Positions 1,538-7,604 of a stretch of 11,322 nucleotides of DNA are shown here, one piece after another (positions within the stretch are counted from its first letter, which is position 1; each line of letters opens with the position of its first letter). This DNA comes from Clostridia bacterium (GTDB lineage Bacteria; Bacillota; Clostridia; Lachnospirales; WQUN01). The stretch spans positions 1 to 11,322 of the forward strand of contig BNUF01000074.1 in the NCBI GenBank assembly GCA_025997155.1, given 5' to 3'. The notes beneath the pieces are model-generated. The model was not told the DNA's origin, ran no database searches, and was given only the letters and a program-made list of their open reading frames with translations. The translations under genes and the position numbers were made by a program.

Positions 1538-2569
1538 CTAGCATGAATACTCCCCCTCAACTTGGTTCCCCCACACGCTCCACCGCTCGTTATACTTTTG
1601 CCGCGCAAACATTTCCAAGTATCGCCCTTCTGGAAACATCTTCTCAATCAGATCATAATAGTAATCCGGTTTTTTGCTATGTTGCGTCCGCGATTCCGTA
1701 TATACGGACGCAACTCGCGCTTCCGCCACAGGCGGCTTAAATTGCCCGCGAGTAGCCACCAGAAGCAACTCGTGCTGCCCTAAAAACCAGTAACCCATAC
1801 CGGGTCGGACTTTGTTCCACACGGCGCACGTCTTATATGTAAAGCCCCACGCGCTGATAACTGAAAAAGCGTCCTGCAACTTGGGCGCGGTTGTCCACAG
1901 GAGTAAAACGGCGTTATCTTGGGCGGGAATAGGTATGTTCTTAATTTCTTCTAAACTCATAGTCGGATAGTGATTTTCCACCGCCCACTTTTCCGTTTCC
2001 GAAAAATCATATTTCCAAGGCGGGTCGGCGTATATTACATCAAACTTGCCGGATAACGGCTGGGGTTGGGTAAATTGAAGCTCGCGCCGCTTCGCCTCGC
2101 ATTCCGCCCGTTTTATTTTTTCTAGCACAAAGGAACGGCTGACAATATCGTCATTCTCCCGAGCCTCGGTTTTGGCTTGTTCGACAAGTTCCCTATTTTC
2201 CGCCAGCTTCATAAACCGCTTCGCTTGATCCGTGGATATTCCGACAGTCTCACGCGCTTTTTGTTTTTGTGTTTCAAGCGGTGCAGCGCTGCCCTCCTTG
2301 AAATTCTCGCTTCTCCTGTCGCCGCCGCTTTCCGCTTTTATGGATTTCAGTAATTCGCCGATACGCATCTCCGCGTCAATAACCACTTCGGCTATATATT
2401 GCGCTTCTTCTTTCTTCTGCGCCCGCACATCGTCGGCAAGCTTTAACCGTTCGATAGCGCGGATTTCAGCGCGTACCGCTGTAAGCTTCTCACGACCAAC
2501 AAGCGCGAATTTCGCCAAATCGTCAAGCGCGGTCGGCAGTTGTGCGTTTTGTATCACTAATTCATCCAA
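1538..2569 (-). CDS. MT-A70 family DNA adenine-N6 methyltransferase, phage type
   Basis: This 343-residue protein is predicted to transfer a methyl group from S-adenosylmethionine to adenine N6, probably in DNA. Residues 1-165 are helical and charged (LPTALDDLAKFALVGREKL, later TVGISTDQAKRFMKLAENRE), resembling the DNA-recognition or ParB-like N-terminal halves common in phage and conjugative-element methyltransferases. Residues 170-335 form the catalytic domain, with FDVIYADPPWKYDF around the DPPW motif (182-185), LLLWTTAP (222-229), and the C-terminal LEMFARQ (318-324) and WGNQV (333-337) typical of MT-A70 (PF05063). No restriction enzyme is adjacent, so it is an orphan. The start is a TTG nine bases after a strong GGGGAGG site, and TAA lies two codons upstream. 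An upstream GQPLNILI frame joins it after a one-base shift, so a longer ancestral N-terminus is possible. Confidence 0.9.
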   Translation of the reverse strand: MDELVIQNAQLPTALDDLAKFALVGREKLTAVRAEIRAIERLKLADDVRAQKKEEAQYIAEVVIDAEMRIGELLKSIKAESGGDRRSENFKEGSAAPLETQKQKARETVGISTDQAKRFMKLAENRELVEQAKTEARENDDIVSRSFVLEKIKRAECEAKRRELQFTQPQPLSGKFDVIYADPPWKYDFSETEKWAVENHYPTMSLEEIKNIPIPAQDNAVLLLWTTAPKLQDAFSVISAWGFTYKTCAVWNKVRPGMGYWFLGQHELLLVATRGQFKPPVAEARVASVYTESRTQHSKKPDYYYDLIEKMFPEGRYLEMFARQKYNERWSVWGNQVEGEYSC

Positions 2570-2612
2570 GTCTTATGCCCTCCCCTTTGGTCAAAGCGTT
2601 CTCCCACCTGCG

Positions 2613-2778
2613 TATCAGTATATTCAAGGGCTGTCCCAATAATAACCGACAAAATAAAAACGCTTGCTTTACGATAAAGCGAGCGTTGATGGAAGTTATG
2701 TTTGCATATAAGCTATGGTTTTGCAAACTGTTTTCGGCGGATGTTGCCAAATGTTTCGTTTCTGATTTTTGTGTTAGG
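2613..2778 (-). repeat. Block 2 copy of the 3' module
   Basis: This counterpart of 118-264 lies downstream of the 88-aa gene. It has the same order: GAAAC-rich stretch, hairpin with arms GTTTGC and GCAAAC (2700-2728), intrinsic terminator (2651-2687), then the frame GQPLNILIRRW. Both copies read from an ETK codon triplet through S-L and ANI in the same frame, so part of the similarity may be coding, but neither copy has a convincing start. Confidence 0.6.
2651..2687 (-). terminator. Intrinsic terminator after the 88-aa gene
   Basis: AACGCTCGCTTTA pairs with TAAAGCAAGCGTT (13 bp, one G-T pair) around a three-base loop, followed by TTTATTTTG on the minus strand. The symmetric stem could work weakly in the other direction, but the T-tract is on the minus side. 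Confidence 0.8.
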
Positions 2779-2790
2779 AGCGGAAGATTA

Positions 2791-3057
2791 TCAATAATCT
2801 TCCGGCAGCAGAACGGTGGTCGCGCTGCGGTCGGCTTCGGTGATTATCCAAAATCTTGCGCCCTTGTGGTCGCGATATACGGATAAAATTCTGCCGTCGT
2901 TGTTTTCTACGGCGTAATCGTTCATCTCCGGATCCGCGCACTCGCCCCAATCACAACACATATGCCGCGCCAATCCTCTACTTATGTCCTCTTTGGCAAT
3001 CGCAGAATATACCTTACTGGTTATTACGATATTCCCTAACTCAAACTTTCTTTTCAT
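2791..3057 (-). CDS. Small conserved protein with 'WIITEADRSATTVLLP' C-terminus
   Basis: This 88-residue soluble protein matches a small family found widely in Firmicutes plasmids, integrative elements and accessory regions. From memory it is often labelled, without experimental basis, 'type I restriction endonuclease subunit M' or 'plasmid-related protein'. Signatures are FELGNIVITSKVYSAIA (5-21), LARHMCCDWGEC (29-40, the usual 'RH..GDWG' position), GRILSVYR (55-62) and the near-invariant WIITEADRSATTVLLPEDY at the C-terminus. No restriction-modification domain is present, so that label should not be taken as function. ATG is preceded by GAAGGA six bases upstream. It has its own shared-type leader and a strong terminator, indicating a single-gene unit between cassette A and the methyltransferase. 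Confidence 0.85.
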   Translation of the reverse strand: MKRKFELGNIVITSKVYSAIAKEDISRGLARHMCCDWGECADPEMNDYAVENNDGRILSVYRDHKGARFWIITEADRSATTVLLPEDY

Positions 3058-3080
3058 TCTTAATCCTTCGTTTACGTTGC

Positions 3081-3150
3081 TTTGTCAGCAACACACGCCT
3101 TGTCGAGCTGCCCAACCACGCTTATATGCCCTATATTTTACGCAAGAAAT
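3081..3150 (-). repeat. Shared 5' leader, copy 2 (upstream of 88-aa gene)
   Basis: This is the counterpart of 751-808, with TTCTTGCGTA, CATATAAGCGTGGTT and GTGTTGCTGACAAAG in the same order on the minus strand. The core GCATATAAGC..TGGTT reappears inverted on the other side of the gene at 2704-2719, as in block 1. Confidence 0.5.
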
Positions 3151-3171
3151 CATCAAAACAGAACCACCAAA

Positions 3172-3198
3172 GAAAAAGCCCCGACTATAAGCCGGAGC
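3172..3198 (-). terminator. Intrinsic terminator of cassette A
   Basis: GCTCCG and CGGGGC pair around a short loop, followed by TTTTTC on the minus strand, about 45 bases after the cassette A stop. It is nearly identical to the cassette B terminator at 4410-4434. Confidence 0.8.
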
Positions 3199-3241
3199 AT
3201 TTTCGTCCCTAATCGCAAGAAAAAATGGTAGCGCAAAAAGT

Positions 3242-3958
3242 CTATTCCACCACCGCGAAACGAACACCCCCGCGCCAGCACGCCAAGCCATTCGACCCGA
3301 CGAACTCAAGCCGACCATCGTCATACACGCACACGCGCGGCACGTGACGGCCATCAGCCGTTTGGATAAACCCATCCTCGGAGTATTGCGGGAAGCGGGT
3401 AAACGTGAAATCGCCCTTATTGAAGTCCAATAACTCGGTGCTGTCATATTCGTCCTCAGACTTAGCGCGGGCGTTGGAAGCTCTCTGTATTTGAGCGCAG
3501 ACGTAGGCGGCAGGCGTGAGGTAGTTCAGTCTAGGCTTGTCAGCCATCAGCTGCTTACTCTCGACGATTTGCTCCTCTATAGCCTTGTCCGTGAACCAAA
3601 GACCCTCGACCTCGTCGCTATGGACAAGAACCAGCCATTGTGGCTCGTTCTTGATGCCATAGTCTCCGAATATCTCGGCTTTGTCGTCCCAAAGTGGAGA
3701 CCATCGCCAATGCTCACCGCCCTCATAGCCGTGTTCTTGGCGCGTAGTGTGGAGCTTAGTGAGCAGGGTGTTGAACTTCTCGGTCGATGTCACGCCATTG
3801 ATGTCTTTGGCGGCAGGAATGTGGATGAGCTCGAGATTGTCTCCCTTGTGGCCAAGAGAGATGACTTTGTCGAGCAAAGCTCTACCCCTTTCGTCTTCAT
3901 CAATCGCCTCGTTTGCCCAAGCCTTGATTGCATCGGGCAGCATTTTTGTGTTTGCCAT
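3242..3958 (-). CDS. Cassette A protein, 238 aa, with hypervariable C-terminus
   Basis: Unknown family, paralogous to the 252-aa protein at 4476-5234. It is cytoplasmic by sequence, with no signal peptide or membrane segment. The N-terminus is MANTKMLPDAIKAW. A conserved core PQWLVLVHSDEVEGLWF spans residues 107-123, followed by LTPAAYVCAQIQRA (147-160) and LLDFNKGDFTFTRFPQY (176-192). The last 33 residues (206-238, from VPRVC to GGVRFAVVE) align without gaps with the paralogue but differ at 21 positions. The ending GVRxAV and the preceding TRFPQ resemble the terminal part of C-type-lectin-fold domains used as variable scaffolds, which is inference only. ATG follows GGAGGT with eight-base spacing. 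It has its own promoter, structured leader and terminator. Binding partner or activity is unknown. Confidence 0.8.
   Translation of the reverse strand: MANTKMLPDAIKAWANEAIDEDERGRALLDKVISLGHKGDNLELIHIPAAKDINGVTSTEKFNTLLTKLHTTRQEHGYEGGEHWRWSPLWDDKAEIFGDYGIKNEPQWLVLVHSDEVEGLWFTDKAIEEQIVESKQLMADKPRLNYLTPAAYVCAQIQRASNARAKSEDEYDSTELLDFNKGDFTFTRFPQYSEDGFIQTADGRHVPRVCVYDDGRLEFVGSNGLACWRGGVRFAVVE
3245..3343 (-). other. Candidate variable region of cassette A (last 33 codons)
   Basis: Aligned codon by codon with 4479-4577 of cassette B, 11 codons are identical, 21 change the amino acid and one is synonymous. I counted 42 base differences: 19 at first, 13 at second and 10 at third positions. Fixed anchors are VP, S, G, A, W, GVR, AV and the final E. 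Confidence 0.55.
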
Positions 3959-4027
3959 TTTTATTTACCTCCATTTGGATATATTCGAATACCGCCCTTG
4001 GAACTGTTCCTCGGGTCGGTGCTGTCG

Positions 4028-4074
4028 TGCAGCGCTAATGAGTAAAAACTTTCGTTTTCACTCTTAACGCTGCA
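4028..4074 (-). promoter_or_regulatory. Long leader hairpin of cassette A
   Basis: On the minus strand TGCAGCGTTAA-GAGTG-AAAAC pairs with GTTTT-TACTC-ATTAG-CGCTGCA over about 21 base pairs, with one bulged A, two G-U pairs and a GAAA loop closed by C-G (a GNRA tetraloop). The 5' arm contains the last codons and stop of the leader peptide. No T-tract follows, so it is not an intrinsic terminator. Copy B has identical arms and a TAAA loop. Confidence 0.75.
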
Positions 4075-4096
4075 CTCCAGCCAAAATGGCAAACAT
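4064..4096 (-). CDS. Putative 10-aa leader peptide of cassette A (MFAILAGVQR)
   Basis: A short ORF in the 5' leader encodes MFAILAGVQR and has AGGA six bases before its ATG. Its stop TAA lies inside the 5' arm of the leader hairpin. The equivalent ORF in cassette B reads MFAILAGLQR. The two nucleotide differences give one synonymous change (GGA/GGT) and one conservative change (V/L), compatible with a translated peptide. The arrangement resembles translational or transcriptional attenuators in which a ribosome on the leader ORF controls folding downstream. This function is inferred. Confidence 0.5.
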   Translation of the reverse strand: MFAILAGVQR

Positions 4097-4162
4097 TCTT
4101 TTTCCTAACGATTATTAAAATACGATGAAAGACAAGGTAGTCTTTACTAATCTTGTATCCGT

Positions 4163-4191
4163 ATTATATAACACTTTGCACTAAAAGTCAA
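4163..4191 (-). promoter_or_regulatory. Sigma-A promoter of cassette A
   Basis: TTGACT and TATAAT are separated by 17 bases on the minus strand. The predicted start near 4156 gives a leader of about 200 nt before the ATG at 3958. The -35 box overlaps the stop codon (4188-4190) of the lectin-like remnant. Confidence 0.82.
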
Positions 4192-4403
4192 GGAATTACC
4201 ACCACCCCACGAAAACCGTAATAGGTAAGGGCGCTGCCATTCGTGTCATAGATAGCCTCGACACCAGCATCGGGGGTATTATCTGAACGGCCACCCCGTA
4301 TGAACCACGGACCGGTGGCGATGACAGAGTTAGCTCGAGCCCCCGACCAGCCACTAGACTCGAAGATAGCTTGTCCTAGACCTAGTTTATTAGAATAGAC
4401 GGA
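4188..4403 (-). pseudogene. Headless C-terminal fragment of a C-type-lectin / FGE-like domain protein
   Basis: An open frame of 71 codons without a start codon reads LGLGQAIFESSGWSGARAN, then GPWFIRGGRSDNTPDAGVEA and TYYGFRGVVVIP before TGA. The pattern 'G-A-[IV]-[FY]-E-[ST]-S ... PWF.RGG ... AGV ... FR.V' matches the C-terminus of phage- and surface-type proteins with a formylglycine-generating-enzyme/C-type-lectin fold, which commonly carry DGR variable regions. An in-frame TGA at 4404-4406 removes the upstream part, and the cassette B terminator follows at once. It looks like the remaining tail of a larger gene cut by insertion or rearrangement of the neighbouring cassette. Expression is doubtful. 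Confidence 0.65.
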
Positions 4404-4409
4404 TCAAGG

Positions 4410-4434
4410 AAAAAGCCCCGACATAAGTCGGAGC
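4410..4434 (-). terminator. Intrinsic terminator of cassette B
   Basis: GCTCCGAC pairs with GTCGGGGC (8 bp, one U-G pair) around TTAT, followed by TTTTTCC on the minus strand. It lies 41 bases after the cassette B stop, and the flank is shared with cassette A. Confidence 0.85.
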
Positions 4435-4475
4435 ATTTTCGTTCTTAATCGCAGAAAAAATTAGGGTATTGAGAC

Positions 4476-5234
4476 CTATTCCTCCACCGCGAGACGAACG
4501 CCCTGGTCCCAGCGCGCATCGCCTTGCGAATAACTTAGATGACGAAACCTTATGGAACGCAGGTTCGTGCTCGGCACTTTTTGATCACTAGGTTTGCTAC
4601 GTACTCCGTCAATGTATTGCGGGAACAGGGTAACGGTTTCGAATCCATTGTTGAAGTCGAGCATTTCGGAGTTATCGCTATCGCCCTCAACGCTGGCGGC
4701 GCGCCGTATCTGTGCGCAAACGTATGCGGCAGGCGAAAGATATCTAAGCCCGGGCTTTTTAGCCATCAGCTTCTTGCTTTCATTAATCTGTTTCTTTACT
4801 GTCTTTTTTGTGAACCACAAACCATCAACCTCGTCGCTATGAACCAGAACCAGCCATTGCGGCTTGTTTTTGACGCCGTAGTTGTCGAAGATTTTGGGCT
4901 TTTCGTACGAAAAACTTTCAAAAAACATCCCGTAATAGTCTTTGCAACCGTGCTCTATGCGGATTGTGCGTAGTTTGGCGATAAGTTCGTCAAAGGTGGT
5001 ATTGGCAGGAATGTAAATCGGTTCGAGTTTATCTTCCTTGAATCCTAGGGAGATAGCTTTGTAAAGTAAAGCTTTACACCTTTCGTCATCTTCTTGCATT
5101 CTGGCGCTTATGTTCGCAACTTCCATATCAGTTGCAAGCCGAGAGATTTCTTGCTCAACCTCGCGCAGTTCTTTGGATGTTGCCCCGTTTATCCAAGCCT
5201 TAATTGGGTCGGGAAGCATTGTTTTGTTCACCAT
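4476..5234 (-). CDS. Cassette B protein, 252 aa, paralogue of cassette A
   Basis: Unknown family, paralogous to the 238-aa protein downstream. It starts MVNKTMLPDPIKAW. An insertion of about 28 residues absent from cassette A follows (residues 20-47, KELREVEQEISRLATDMEVA onwards), heptad-like and probably a short coiled coil. The shared core PQWLVLVHSDEVDGLWF (126-142) differs from A at one residue although several codons differ silently, so the core is under purifying selection. LSPAAYVCAQIRRA (166-179) and FPQY (204-207) are also shared. The final 33 residues (220-252, VPSTN to GVRLAVEE) are strongly divergent from A at fixed length. ATG follows an AGGAGGAG site at good spacing. It carries its own consensus promoter, conserved leader and terminator. 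No secretion signal is visible, and function is unknown. Confidence 0.8.
   Translation of the reverse strand: MVNKTMLPDPIKAWINGATSKELREVEQEISRLATDMEVANISARMQEDDERCKALLYKAISLGFKEDKLEPIYIPANTTFDELIAKLRTIRIEHGCKDYYGMFFESFSYEKPKIFDNYGVKNKPQWLVLVHSDEVDGLWFTKKTVKKQINESKKLMAKKPGLRYLSPAAYVCAQIRRAASVEGDSDNSEMLDFNNGFETVTLFPQYIDGVRSKPSDQKVPSTNLRSIRFRHLSYSQGDARWDQGVRLAVEE
4479..4577 (-). other. Candidate variable region of cassette B (last 33 codons)
   Basis: This is the partner of 3245-3343. Length and frame are identical, with anchors shared at VP, S17, G19, A21, W23, GVR and AV (numbered within the 33). Divergence is concentrated between the anchors. No A-rich template copy of this stretch is present in the window. 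Confidence 0.55.
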
Positions 5235-5302
5235 TTTGATCTCCTCCTAATAGGATTATAAGATACCGCCCGTAGATTTATTCCTCGAGTCAGTTGCTGT
5301 CG

Positions 5303-5349
5303 TGCAGCGCTAATGAGTAAAAACTTTAGTTTTCACTCTTAACGCTGCA
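5303..5349 (-). promoter_or_regulatory. Long leader hairpin of cassette B
   Basis: Both arms are identical in sequence to the cassette A hairpin, and the four-base loop is TAAA instead of GAAA. The leaders around it (about 5290-5410) are highly similar to A, while the last 60 bases before the ATG have diverged. This points to selection on the peptide-plus-hairpin part. Confidence 0.75.
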
Positions 5350-5371
5350 AACCAGCCAAAATGGCAAACAT
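5339..5371 (-). CDS. Putative 10-aa leader peptide of cassette B (MFAILAGLQR)
   Basis: This is the same short ORF as in cassette A, with the same AGGA site six bases upstream and the same TAA buried in the hairpin stem. The Val-to-Leu replacement relative to A is conservative. Confidence 0.5.
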   Translation of the reverse strand: MFAILAGLQR

Positions 5372-5437
5372 TCTTTTTCCTAACGATTGTAAAAGTCCGA
5401 TTAAAGACAAGGTGATTTTGATTAGCCTTATACACAT

Positions 5438-5466
5438 ATAATAGCACACTTTGTGCAAAAAGTCAA
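5438..5466 (-). promoter_or_regulatory. Sigma-A promoter of cassette B
   Basis: TTGACT and TATTAT are separated by 17 bases on the minus strand. The spacer contains the same GCA.AAAGTG word as promoter A. Between it and the kinase stop (5467-5522) I see no further feature and no terminator, so some read-through from the kinase is possible. Confidence 0.8.
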
Positions 5467-5522: not shown

Positions 5523-7604
5523 TCAGCCATTATAAACATCCAATTCGAACGTAAAGGCACTGCCTTCGCCCTCAATGCTAGAAAAAGTGAGTTTACCGCC
5601 GTGGTTCTCTATGACGGTTTTTGAGACATAAAGCCCAATGCCGGTTCCATCAGGGCGATGCTGTTCAGCGTTGGAAGCGCGGAACATCTTGCCGAAAATC
5701 TTGGCTTGATCGGCTTTTGGAATACCAATACCATCGTCTTTGACAGTAAAGACCGCGCGACTGCCGACTTTCCGCAGGCTTGCGTCAACTTTGCTTTTAC
5801 CATAAAAGATAGCGTTGTCGAGCAGATTGGCTACAACTTGCCTTATTCTGGATATATCTCCGTTAATTTCTATGTCGCCCTTGTCGCGACTGTAGGTCAA
5901 CTCAATGCCTTTATCTTCGGCAAGCCACCTTATAGCCGCAACTTCTTGGTCTGCAGAATCGGTTAAGCTGAAAACGGTTTTGTTGAGCCCAAATCTCCCT
6001 GAATCTATGCGAGAGGCGTCCAAGAGGCTGTTGACGACCTGGTTCATAATTTTGCCGCTCTTTTTAATTTCTCCGGCATACATTTCCAGCTCCTTTTTAC
6101 TGACGCCGCCCTCAAGCATCATATCCGCATAGCCGATTACGCCGGTTAAGGGTGTGCGCAGGTTGTGGGAAACAATGGTTAGAAGCTCGCTTTTCATATC
6201 GTCAAGCTTCAGTAATTCTTTGTTGCTGGCGCGAAGTTCGCGGGTTTGCTTGCGGATTTTATCCGCCATATTGTGATTGAGATCCAAAACTTCTTCATAG
6301 AGAATTGCGGACTGGACAAAGGGCGAGATAATAGCGGCTATCCTTTCCAATGTTTCTCCATAGTATCTGTCGAATTTACGTTTTCTCGGACTGAGAACAA
6401 TCGCTCCTAAAGTTTTCCTGTCGATCGCGCTTATTATAGGGATTACAACCTCGATGTTGTGGGCGATAAGAGCCGTGCGGACGGTTTTGCTTTGCGCGTC
6501 TTCATAGTAAACCGCAGTGGCTTTTTGACCTTGAAGCAAGTGCGGTAATTGGCTTTCCAAGCTGGTTGAGGTATGCGCGGCGGTGTTTTTGCCCAAGATA
6601 ATAACGTCCGACTGCTCAACACCGAAGGCTCTGTTTAGAGTATGGCGAATTGCGCTGAAAAAGTCTTTTGCTCCGTGCCTTTTCTCGATGATGTATGAAA
6701 TGTTGCGGATAATTTCTGATTCGTTGTAGGAGTCGGAGTCAAAATAGCGGGTAGTCAAACGGTTAATGCCAAGCACTATCATTATAAGTGATACGCATAC
6801 AAGACTGCTAACGCCGGAAATTATGAGCGGCTGCTGACGACGCAAGAAATATCCCGTTAAAAGCGTTCCAAAAATTATTGTAACTAGGCAAACTGTGATA
6901 CTCAGTCCTTTTAAGAGAGTTTTTACGGCGGAAAAATGTTCGCCGGTAGTGGCGAGACGAAAAGCTATGGGAATAAATACCATTGCGCCCAACGGACCGA
7001 CCCAAATTAAGTTATAGTTACCAAGCGCAGGCAAAAGGAGATTGAACCAAGCGCCTATTACACCGCCAGCTGCGGCTAGTGGAAGGATCAGCTTTAGCTC
7101 CTTTGTCTTTCGTATATTGAGGGTTTGCGATTTTATGGTTAGGAAAACCAATCCTAGAAATACCGTAAACAAAGCGACAAAAACGGCACAGTAAGTAAGA
7201 TAATTTGTCATATTCAATTCAACAATTCTGTTGCTATGAGAAATAATTTCTAACCCGGTAACAATTGTATCAGGCTTGAAAAATAAGGTGGCGGCAAGAA
7301 ATATAGGCACGCAAAAGAGGAGGAATCCAAGCAAAGCAGGTATTTTTTTGCTATAAGAGTCGGCAAGTAAAATACTGGAAACAGGAATTGTAATGGCAAT
7401 TACATAAAAGCAGTTGGCGTAAATAAGCGACATATTTTCGCTATCGCTTGTGAGAAAAAGTACAACCAGCAAAATCCAAGTAGCTTCAACGATCGTAGTG
7501 AGAGCCACCCTTTTGGCGGAGACGCTTTTTAAGGTAAAAGACCCCATCGCCAGCATAAACAAAATGCCTGCAATAACAGTAAGCAGGTACAAGTGTTTTT
7601 CCAT
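5523..7604 (-). CDS. 7TM sensor histidine kinase (7TM-GAF-HisKA-HATPase_c)
   Basis: A membrane sensor kinase of about 693 residues. The first ~285 residues contain eight or so hydrophobic segments, consistent with the N-terminal 7TM sensing region of histidine kinases (PF16927-like) plus extra helices. Residues ~320-435 look like a GAF-type domain (RAFGVEQSDVIILG, then GAIVLSPR). A short coiled coil leads to HisKA with SHNLRTP, whose phospho-accepting His is about residue 480. HATPase_c has the N-box NLLDNA, G1 box DDGIGIP and G2 box RPDGTGIGL. All catalytic motifs are intact, with no receiver domain and no response-regulator gene in the window. A longer start at 7622 (six more residues) is possible. 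I prefer 7604 because 7622 lies within the putative -10 box and neither start has a Shine-Dalgarno site. It lies downstream of a methyltransferase in the same orientation, which may make or modify its signal (inference). Confidence 0.88.
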   Translation of the reverse strand: MEKHLYLLTVIAGILFMLAMGSFTLKSVSAKRVALTTIVEATWILLVVLFLTSDSENMSLIYANCFYVIAITIPVSSILLADSYSKKIPALLGFLLFCVPIFLAATLFFKPDTIVTGLEIISHSNRIVELNMTNYLTYCAVFVALFTVFLGLVFLTIKSQTLNIRKTKELKLILPLAAAGGVIGAWFNLLLPALGNYNLIWVGPLGAMVFIPIAFRLATTGEHFSAVKTLLKGLSITVCLVTIIFGTLLTGYFLRRQQPLIISGVSSLVCVSLIMIVLGINRLTTRYFDSDSYNESEIIRNISYIIEKRHGAKDFFSAIRHTLNRAFGVEQSDVIILGKNTAAHTSTSLESQLPHLLQGQKATAVYYEDAQSKTVRTALIAHNIEVVIPIISAIDRKTLGAIVLSPRKRKFDRYYGETLERIAAIISPFVQSAILYEEVLDLNHNMADKIRKQTRELRASNKELLKLDDMKSELLTIVSHNLRTPLTGVIGYADMMLEGGVSKKELEMYAGEIKKSGKIMNQVVNSLLDASRIDSGRFGLNKTVFSLTDSADQEVAAIRWLAEDKGIELTYSRDKGDIEINGDISRIRQVVANLLDNAIFYGKSKVDASLRKVGSRAVFTVKDDGIGIPKADQAKIFGKMFRASNAEQHRPDGTGIGLYVSKTVIENHGGKLTFSSIEGEGSAFTFELDVYNG

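Follow-up and report, generated by a model that had tools for sequence, protein, structure and literature searches.

Tandem Clostridia genes with C-terminal tails that resemble the variable regions of diversity-generating retroelement targets

The hallmark of diversity-generating retroelements (DGRs), and the AAY codons that go with it, are described in the sections of PMC5006420 used here. In the part of PMC8144416 cited here, typically at least 75% of mismatches face adenines of the template, and a large DGR survey is such that it would miss targets not adjoining the reverse transcriptase (RT). Targets that are remote from their retroelement, or left over from one, are described in an excerpt of PMC4891356. 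Passages of two other papers connect DUF6273 with the C-type lectin fold (PMC10743442) and lectin-fold DGR targets with vWA systems (PMC7159879). Here we compare with these systems two paralogous genes, A and B, from a Clostridia bacterium (GenBank assembly GCA_025997155.1, our G000, with 502 contigs and 77% complete). The window, that is, the whole stretch of DNA analysed, is positions 1 to 11,322 of contig BNUF01000074.1 (C74). The original prediction, made from the letters of the window, was that the C-termini of A and B may be DGR-style variable regions, or else products of another localised diversification or of strong diversifying selection. We find that the tails do resemble such regions, and we give a rough probability of 0.66 to the genes being DGR targets; because the template is missing, that membership is not proven.

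Localised hypervariability in the tails

A and B are 51% identical over residues 20-237 of A. Recounting gives the same figures as the original prediction: the last 33 codons align without gaps, with 11 codons identical, 1 synonymous and 21 non-synonymous, and with base changes falling 19/13/10 on codon positions 1/2/3; a 17-codon core, PQWLVLVHSDEV[E/D]GLWF, has 11 identical codons, 5 silent changes and 1 replacement. The ratio of non-synonymous to synonymous codons is 21:1 for the tail compared with 86:51 for the body (Fisher p 0.0013), and third positions take 10/42 of the base changes in the tail versus 98/201 in the body (p 0.0035). Both the excess of replacements and the deficit of third-position changes exceed chance. 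The tail is a mosaic. Third bases, compared by eye, differ in 1 of the 21 codons of two outer blocks (residues 206-213 and 226-238) and in 9 of the 12 codons of a middle block (residues 214-225), a division made after viewing the data. The middle of the B tail is without the residues that are fixed across the family (A positions 211, 215, 217 and 221). Compensating frameshifts in that block of B were considered and rejected, as the other frames lead by eye to stops or to no likeness.

Protein searches of about 5.8 billion sequences reached 13 family members, and aligning them shows that the hypervariable pattern recurs across the family. Eleven tail columns have at least 6 residue types (205, 208, 210, 212, 214, 218, 220, 223, 225, 227 and 229, in A numbering), and they interleave with fixed columns. 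Among the 14 of 45 pairs of proteins listed, five have bodies 76-80% identical. A (P0001) and P0002 agree at 139/181 body positions, 18/24 other tail sites and 1/11 hypervariable columns; the same three counts are 134/171, 20/24 and 2/11 for P0010 and P0011, 129/169, 16/24 and 1/11 for P0004 and P0007, and 136/169, 14/24 and 2/11 for P0005 and P0007. The fifth pair, P0004 and P0005, both in the genome of a relative (G017, 96% complete), agrees at 137/171, 22/24 and 10/11. Amongst all 45 pairs of ten full-length tails (leaving out P0006, P0008 and P0012, which have odd tail ends), agreements at the 11 columns number 0 in 10 pairs, 1 in 21, 2 in 10, 3 in 3 and 10 in 1. These counts are not independent tests because the pairs share ancestry, and the columns were selected for variability; this objection bears less on the contrast of P0004-P0005 with other pairs whose bodies are about equally alike. 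The G017 tails are frozen, with 3 silent and 3 replacement changes in the last 33 codons and 39 silent and 38 replacement changes in the body.

The hypervariable tail columns also have a composition of their own, counted without P0005, which is closely related to P0004, and without columns that have few letters. Cysteine makes up 14/127 residues there versus 0/227 at 19 hypervariable columns of the body (p 4e-7), and 10/99 versus 0/206 when only nine intact, non-duplicate tails are used. Tyrosine makes up 16/127 versus 6/227, and K/E/Q/M/W together 11/127 versus 60/227. At the five cleanest columns, picked afterwards, K/E/Q/M/W account for 0/57 residues, and an N-[A/G]-Y codon would serve for 52/57, with F and L making up the remaining five. 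Codons ending in C or T are 24/27 at the variable tail sites versus 338/615 in the body and 29/75 in the rest of the tail (A, B and one G017 copy, over nine of the eleven columns, 214 and 218 left out). Replacement at scattered sites with the footprint of AAY codons is what a DGR target has, and it is found here with one deviation, the missing class of A/T/P/I/V. The family suggests that an alignment of proteins may by itself be enough to recognise remote DGR targets, the sign being hypervariable columns that alternate with others and are rich in Cys and Tyr.

As for the C-type-lectin fold raised by the original prediction, the model of a relative resembles it. A structure model of P0010 (predicted local distance difference test 76, predicted template modelling score 0.83) has 34 of its 50 listed structural matches reaching the C-terminus, and 33 of these 34 are C-type lectins (a label that we take from titles or assume), EgtB/SenA/OvoA enzymes, which have the same fold, or the Thermus DGR variable protein 5vf4. 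The Z scores are modest, and Foldseek searches of the PDB and of viral models returned nothing at E<=0.001. By extension from this model A would have the lectin fold too.

The family is narrowly distributed. Among its sources, Clostridia bacterium AGMMS49975 and a Defluviitaleaceae bacterium are named, and from isolate names it presumably originates in termite guts. The metagenome-assembled genome Th196P3bin142 holds two members, and its stretches include DNA of G017. The gene is present in 2 of 38 genomes of family rank, G000 and G017, and evenly drawn genomes of the order (392), class (391) and phylum (398) have no full-length relative besides these two. Weak matches in the latter sets span profile positions 47-92 only, and two that were read (L035 and L036, at about 48-92) we take to be MazG-like. 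The viral_contigs collection has no relative and the phages collection none of P0010; genome_contigs gave none with A alone as the query and two with the alignment, both from the G017 assembly. None of the 13 members has a precomputed Pfam domain, A has no match in Pfam, NCBIfam or PHROG at E<=1, and the sole Pfam match of B is unrelated and under its cut-off. Reading frames in G029 (L054, 587-970) and G022 (L058, 1441-1671) share a stretch, EDGRHVPRAYNMDTGRF / EEGRHVPRTYNMDNGQF, like the start of the tail; they are probably an unrelated repeat protein. A G017 contig (L023) has a 131-base repeat, 92% identical, at 4763-4893 and 7364-7494, one copy lying upstream of the gene and the other elsewhere.

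Reverse transcriptases in the same assembly

The DGR reverse transcriptase for which the original prediction proposed a search has counterparts in G000. RVT_1 (PF00078) matches fall at five places, four over the cut-off, and one of the RT genes, on contig C79, adjoins a template and two DUF6273 targets. C79 is an inverted self-copy repeating head to head, probably because the assembly folded back and cut the RT, and one gene accordingly accounts for two of the five places. The PF19789 profile picks up the C79 template (E 1.6e-5) together with four more DUF6273 genes, which lie on C207, C116 and C27. Those four genes (L050, L051 and L052, respectively) have ends like the C79 variable regions, and the ones on C207 and C27 adjoin vWA-like and PP2C-like genes (by eye), on C207 also a kinase. 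For the RT on contig C63, which is preceded by a 259-residue frame, the closest PDB sequence is 8ub7, titled 'Reverse transcriptase' and presumably the DGR enzyme of Bordetella phage. This DGR-like RT and the frame lie (L006, 1421-3504) between 43-base inverted repeats that are 93% complementary. The contig of the window has no RVT_1 match, nor does G017. The family provides a first comparison of a genome with RTs and a relative without a match; it is a single comparison and not a trend.

Weighing the readings

Under the reading that we prefer, A and B are members of a small Clostridia gene family whose proteins would combine a helical N-terminal part with a C-type-lectin-like, possibly ligand-binding, domain. 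The last 35 residues or so would be a DGR-type variable region, where a fixed scaffold alternates with residues re-randomised at AAY-like codons through mutagenic retrohoming. The machinery may act, or have acted, from elsewhere, making A and B remote or orphaned targets, and the cognate template of the RT-bearing genome may lie in its unassembled part or be lost.

Several results weigh against this reading. The template copy with adenines at the differing sites that the original prediction called for was not found, either by a tail profile in G000 or G017 or by an adenine-aware scan of 18 loci that include the window and the G017 stretches; positive controls worked. Neither an RT nor a template adjoins A or B, which lowers the DGR reading without excluding it, because remote targets are known. 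The residues A/T/P/I/V are absent among the 57 at the five cleanest columns. Across the 38 genomes of family rank, the tail profile gave, besides four known tails, only nine weak matches (E 0.011-0.94), and none of the eight that were translated (all except G009 C26) is asparagine-rich like a template. A G000 match (L033, E 4.8) is sub-threshold and inside a 439-residue frame, and the C79 template was rejected as a source of the tails, as the adenine-aware scan gave no match. The A-rich template that third-position changes seemed to demand also does not survive as one template shared over the whole tail: by eye, 7 of its 12 middle codons would have to be AAA, and the C79 template has no AAA among the 45 codons displayed. 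Therefore A and B are not both recent copies of one template across the whole tail.

One form of the DGR reading has the family descending from DGR targets, with A and B, or at least B, now drifting after loss of the DGR. We regard this relic as possible and hold it tentatively. It is consistent with the frozen copies of G017, with the middle of the B tail, with the recombinase gene and variable-region-like remnant in the window, and with the odd tail ends of P0006, P0008 and P0012, for which assembly errors are an alternative cause. There is also a precedent in Treponema denticola, where the excerpt of PMC4891356 proposes a target left from a lost DGR. Against it, G000 does have RT genes, and A differs from P0002 at 10/11 columns with a body 77% identical. 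Next comes an explanation without a retroelement, in which a lectin-like domain exposes the tail as its binding face and strong diversifying selection has made it diverge through ordinary point mutations. The missing template would fit, as would the third-position changes in the middle of the A and B tails, and the skew to C, Y, R, S, N, G and D without A/T/P/I/V could reflect selection on a binding surface. We think it unlikely, given proteins 76-80% identical elsewhere that agree at only 1-2 of 11 columns, a cysteine content of 11% that we judge unusual for a selected surface, the C/T-ending codons, and outer blocks (drawn post hoc) that retain third bases in 20/21 codons when the body has changed them in 98/191. 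More doubtful still is a trans-acting, template-directed diversification with a mutation spectrum unlike that of the C79 DGR, in which, going by the N-[A/G]-Y residues at the five cleanest columns, second-position adenines would change almost only to G; if true, a family of remote targets would be served by a variant DGR or by some other localised mutator. Chance, or an artefact of aligning two diverged paralogues, was conceivable when only two tails were compared, and recurrence of the pattern in further family members leaves it hardly any credence.

Layout of the window and known systems

The two genes form tandem minus-strand cassettes, each with a promoter-like sequence and hairpin leader, a gene and a terminator-like hairpin (Table 1); the promoter-like and leader regions are 85% identical. 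Between the cassettes lies a remnant reading frame, the TGA stop of which (4190-4188) falls within the -35 box of gene A. We assume a likeness of this remnant to another class of DGR variable region; G000, G017, phages and viral_contigs yielded nothing related to it, and its best E-value against PHROG is only 0.22. Neighbouring genes include an MT-A70 methyltransferase, a resolvase-type recombinase, a histidine kinase and a nucleotidyltransferase.

Table 1. Coordinates of features in the window and of the DGR on contig C79.
Feature	Positions	Strand	Remarks
Gene A	3242-3958	minus	238 aa
Variable-region-like tail of A	3245-3349	minus	residues 204-238
Conserved 17-codon core of A	3593-3643	minus	PQWLVLVHSDEVEGLWF; silent substitutions versus B
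Promoter-like sequence and leader of A	4020-4191	minus	TTGACT 4191-4186, 17-base spacer, TATAAT 4168-4163, long hairpin; promoter assigned from sequence only
Terminator-like hairpin and T run 3' of A	3170-3224	minus	
Remnant reading frame between cassettes	4191-4382	minus	..GPWFIRGGRSDNTPDAGVEAIYDTNGSALTYYGFRGVVVIP
Gene B	4476-5234	minus	252 aa; paralogue of A
Variable-region-like tail of B	4479-4583	minus	
Promoter-like sequence and leader of B	5295-5466	minus	TTGACT 5466-5461, 17-base spacer, TATTAT 5443-5438, same hairpin; promoter likewise read from the letters
Terminator-like hairpin and T run 3' of B	4406-4460	minus	
DGR on G000 contig C79 (L007)	1599-5275		two DUF6273 targets; template 4125-4329 (asparagine-rich translation); RT fragment

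Amongst known systems, the Thermus aquaticus protein TaqVP (5vf4) is absent from the sequence matches at E<=10. The C79 DUF6273 (PF19789) targets have their own template, unlike A and B; the profiles of DUF6273 and of the A/B family have no significant match, and no Pfam model, DUF6273 included, matches A or B significantly. The two groups share a C-terminal variable region ending in G-V-R-P-A and a common spacing, A-x-V-x-x-x-G-x-[VF]-x-[IL]-x-G, seen by eye and in the register of the profile alignment. For the Treponema denticola targets, in the excerpt of PMC4891356, a matching template is known from other isolates, where A and B have none known; like A and B, those remote or left-over targets lie away from, or are without, an RT and template.
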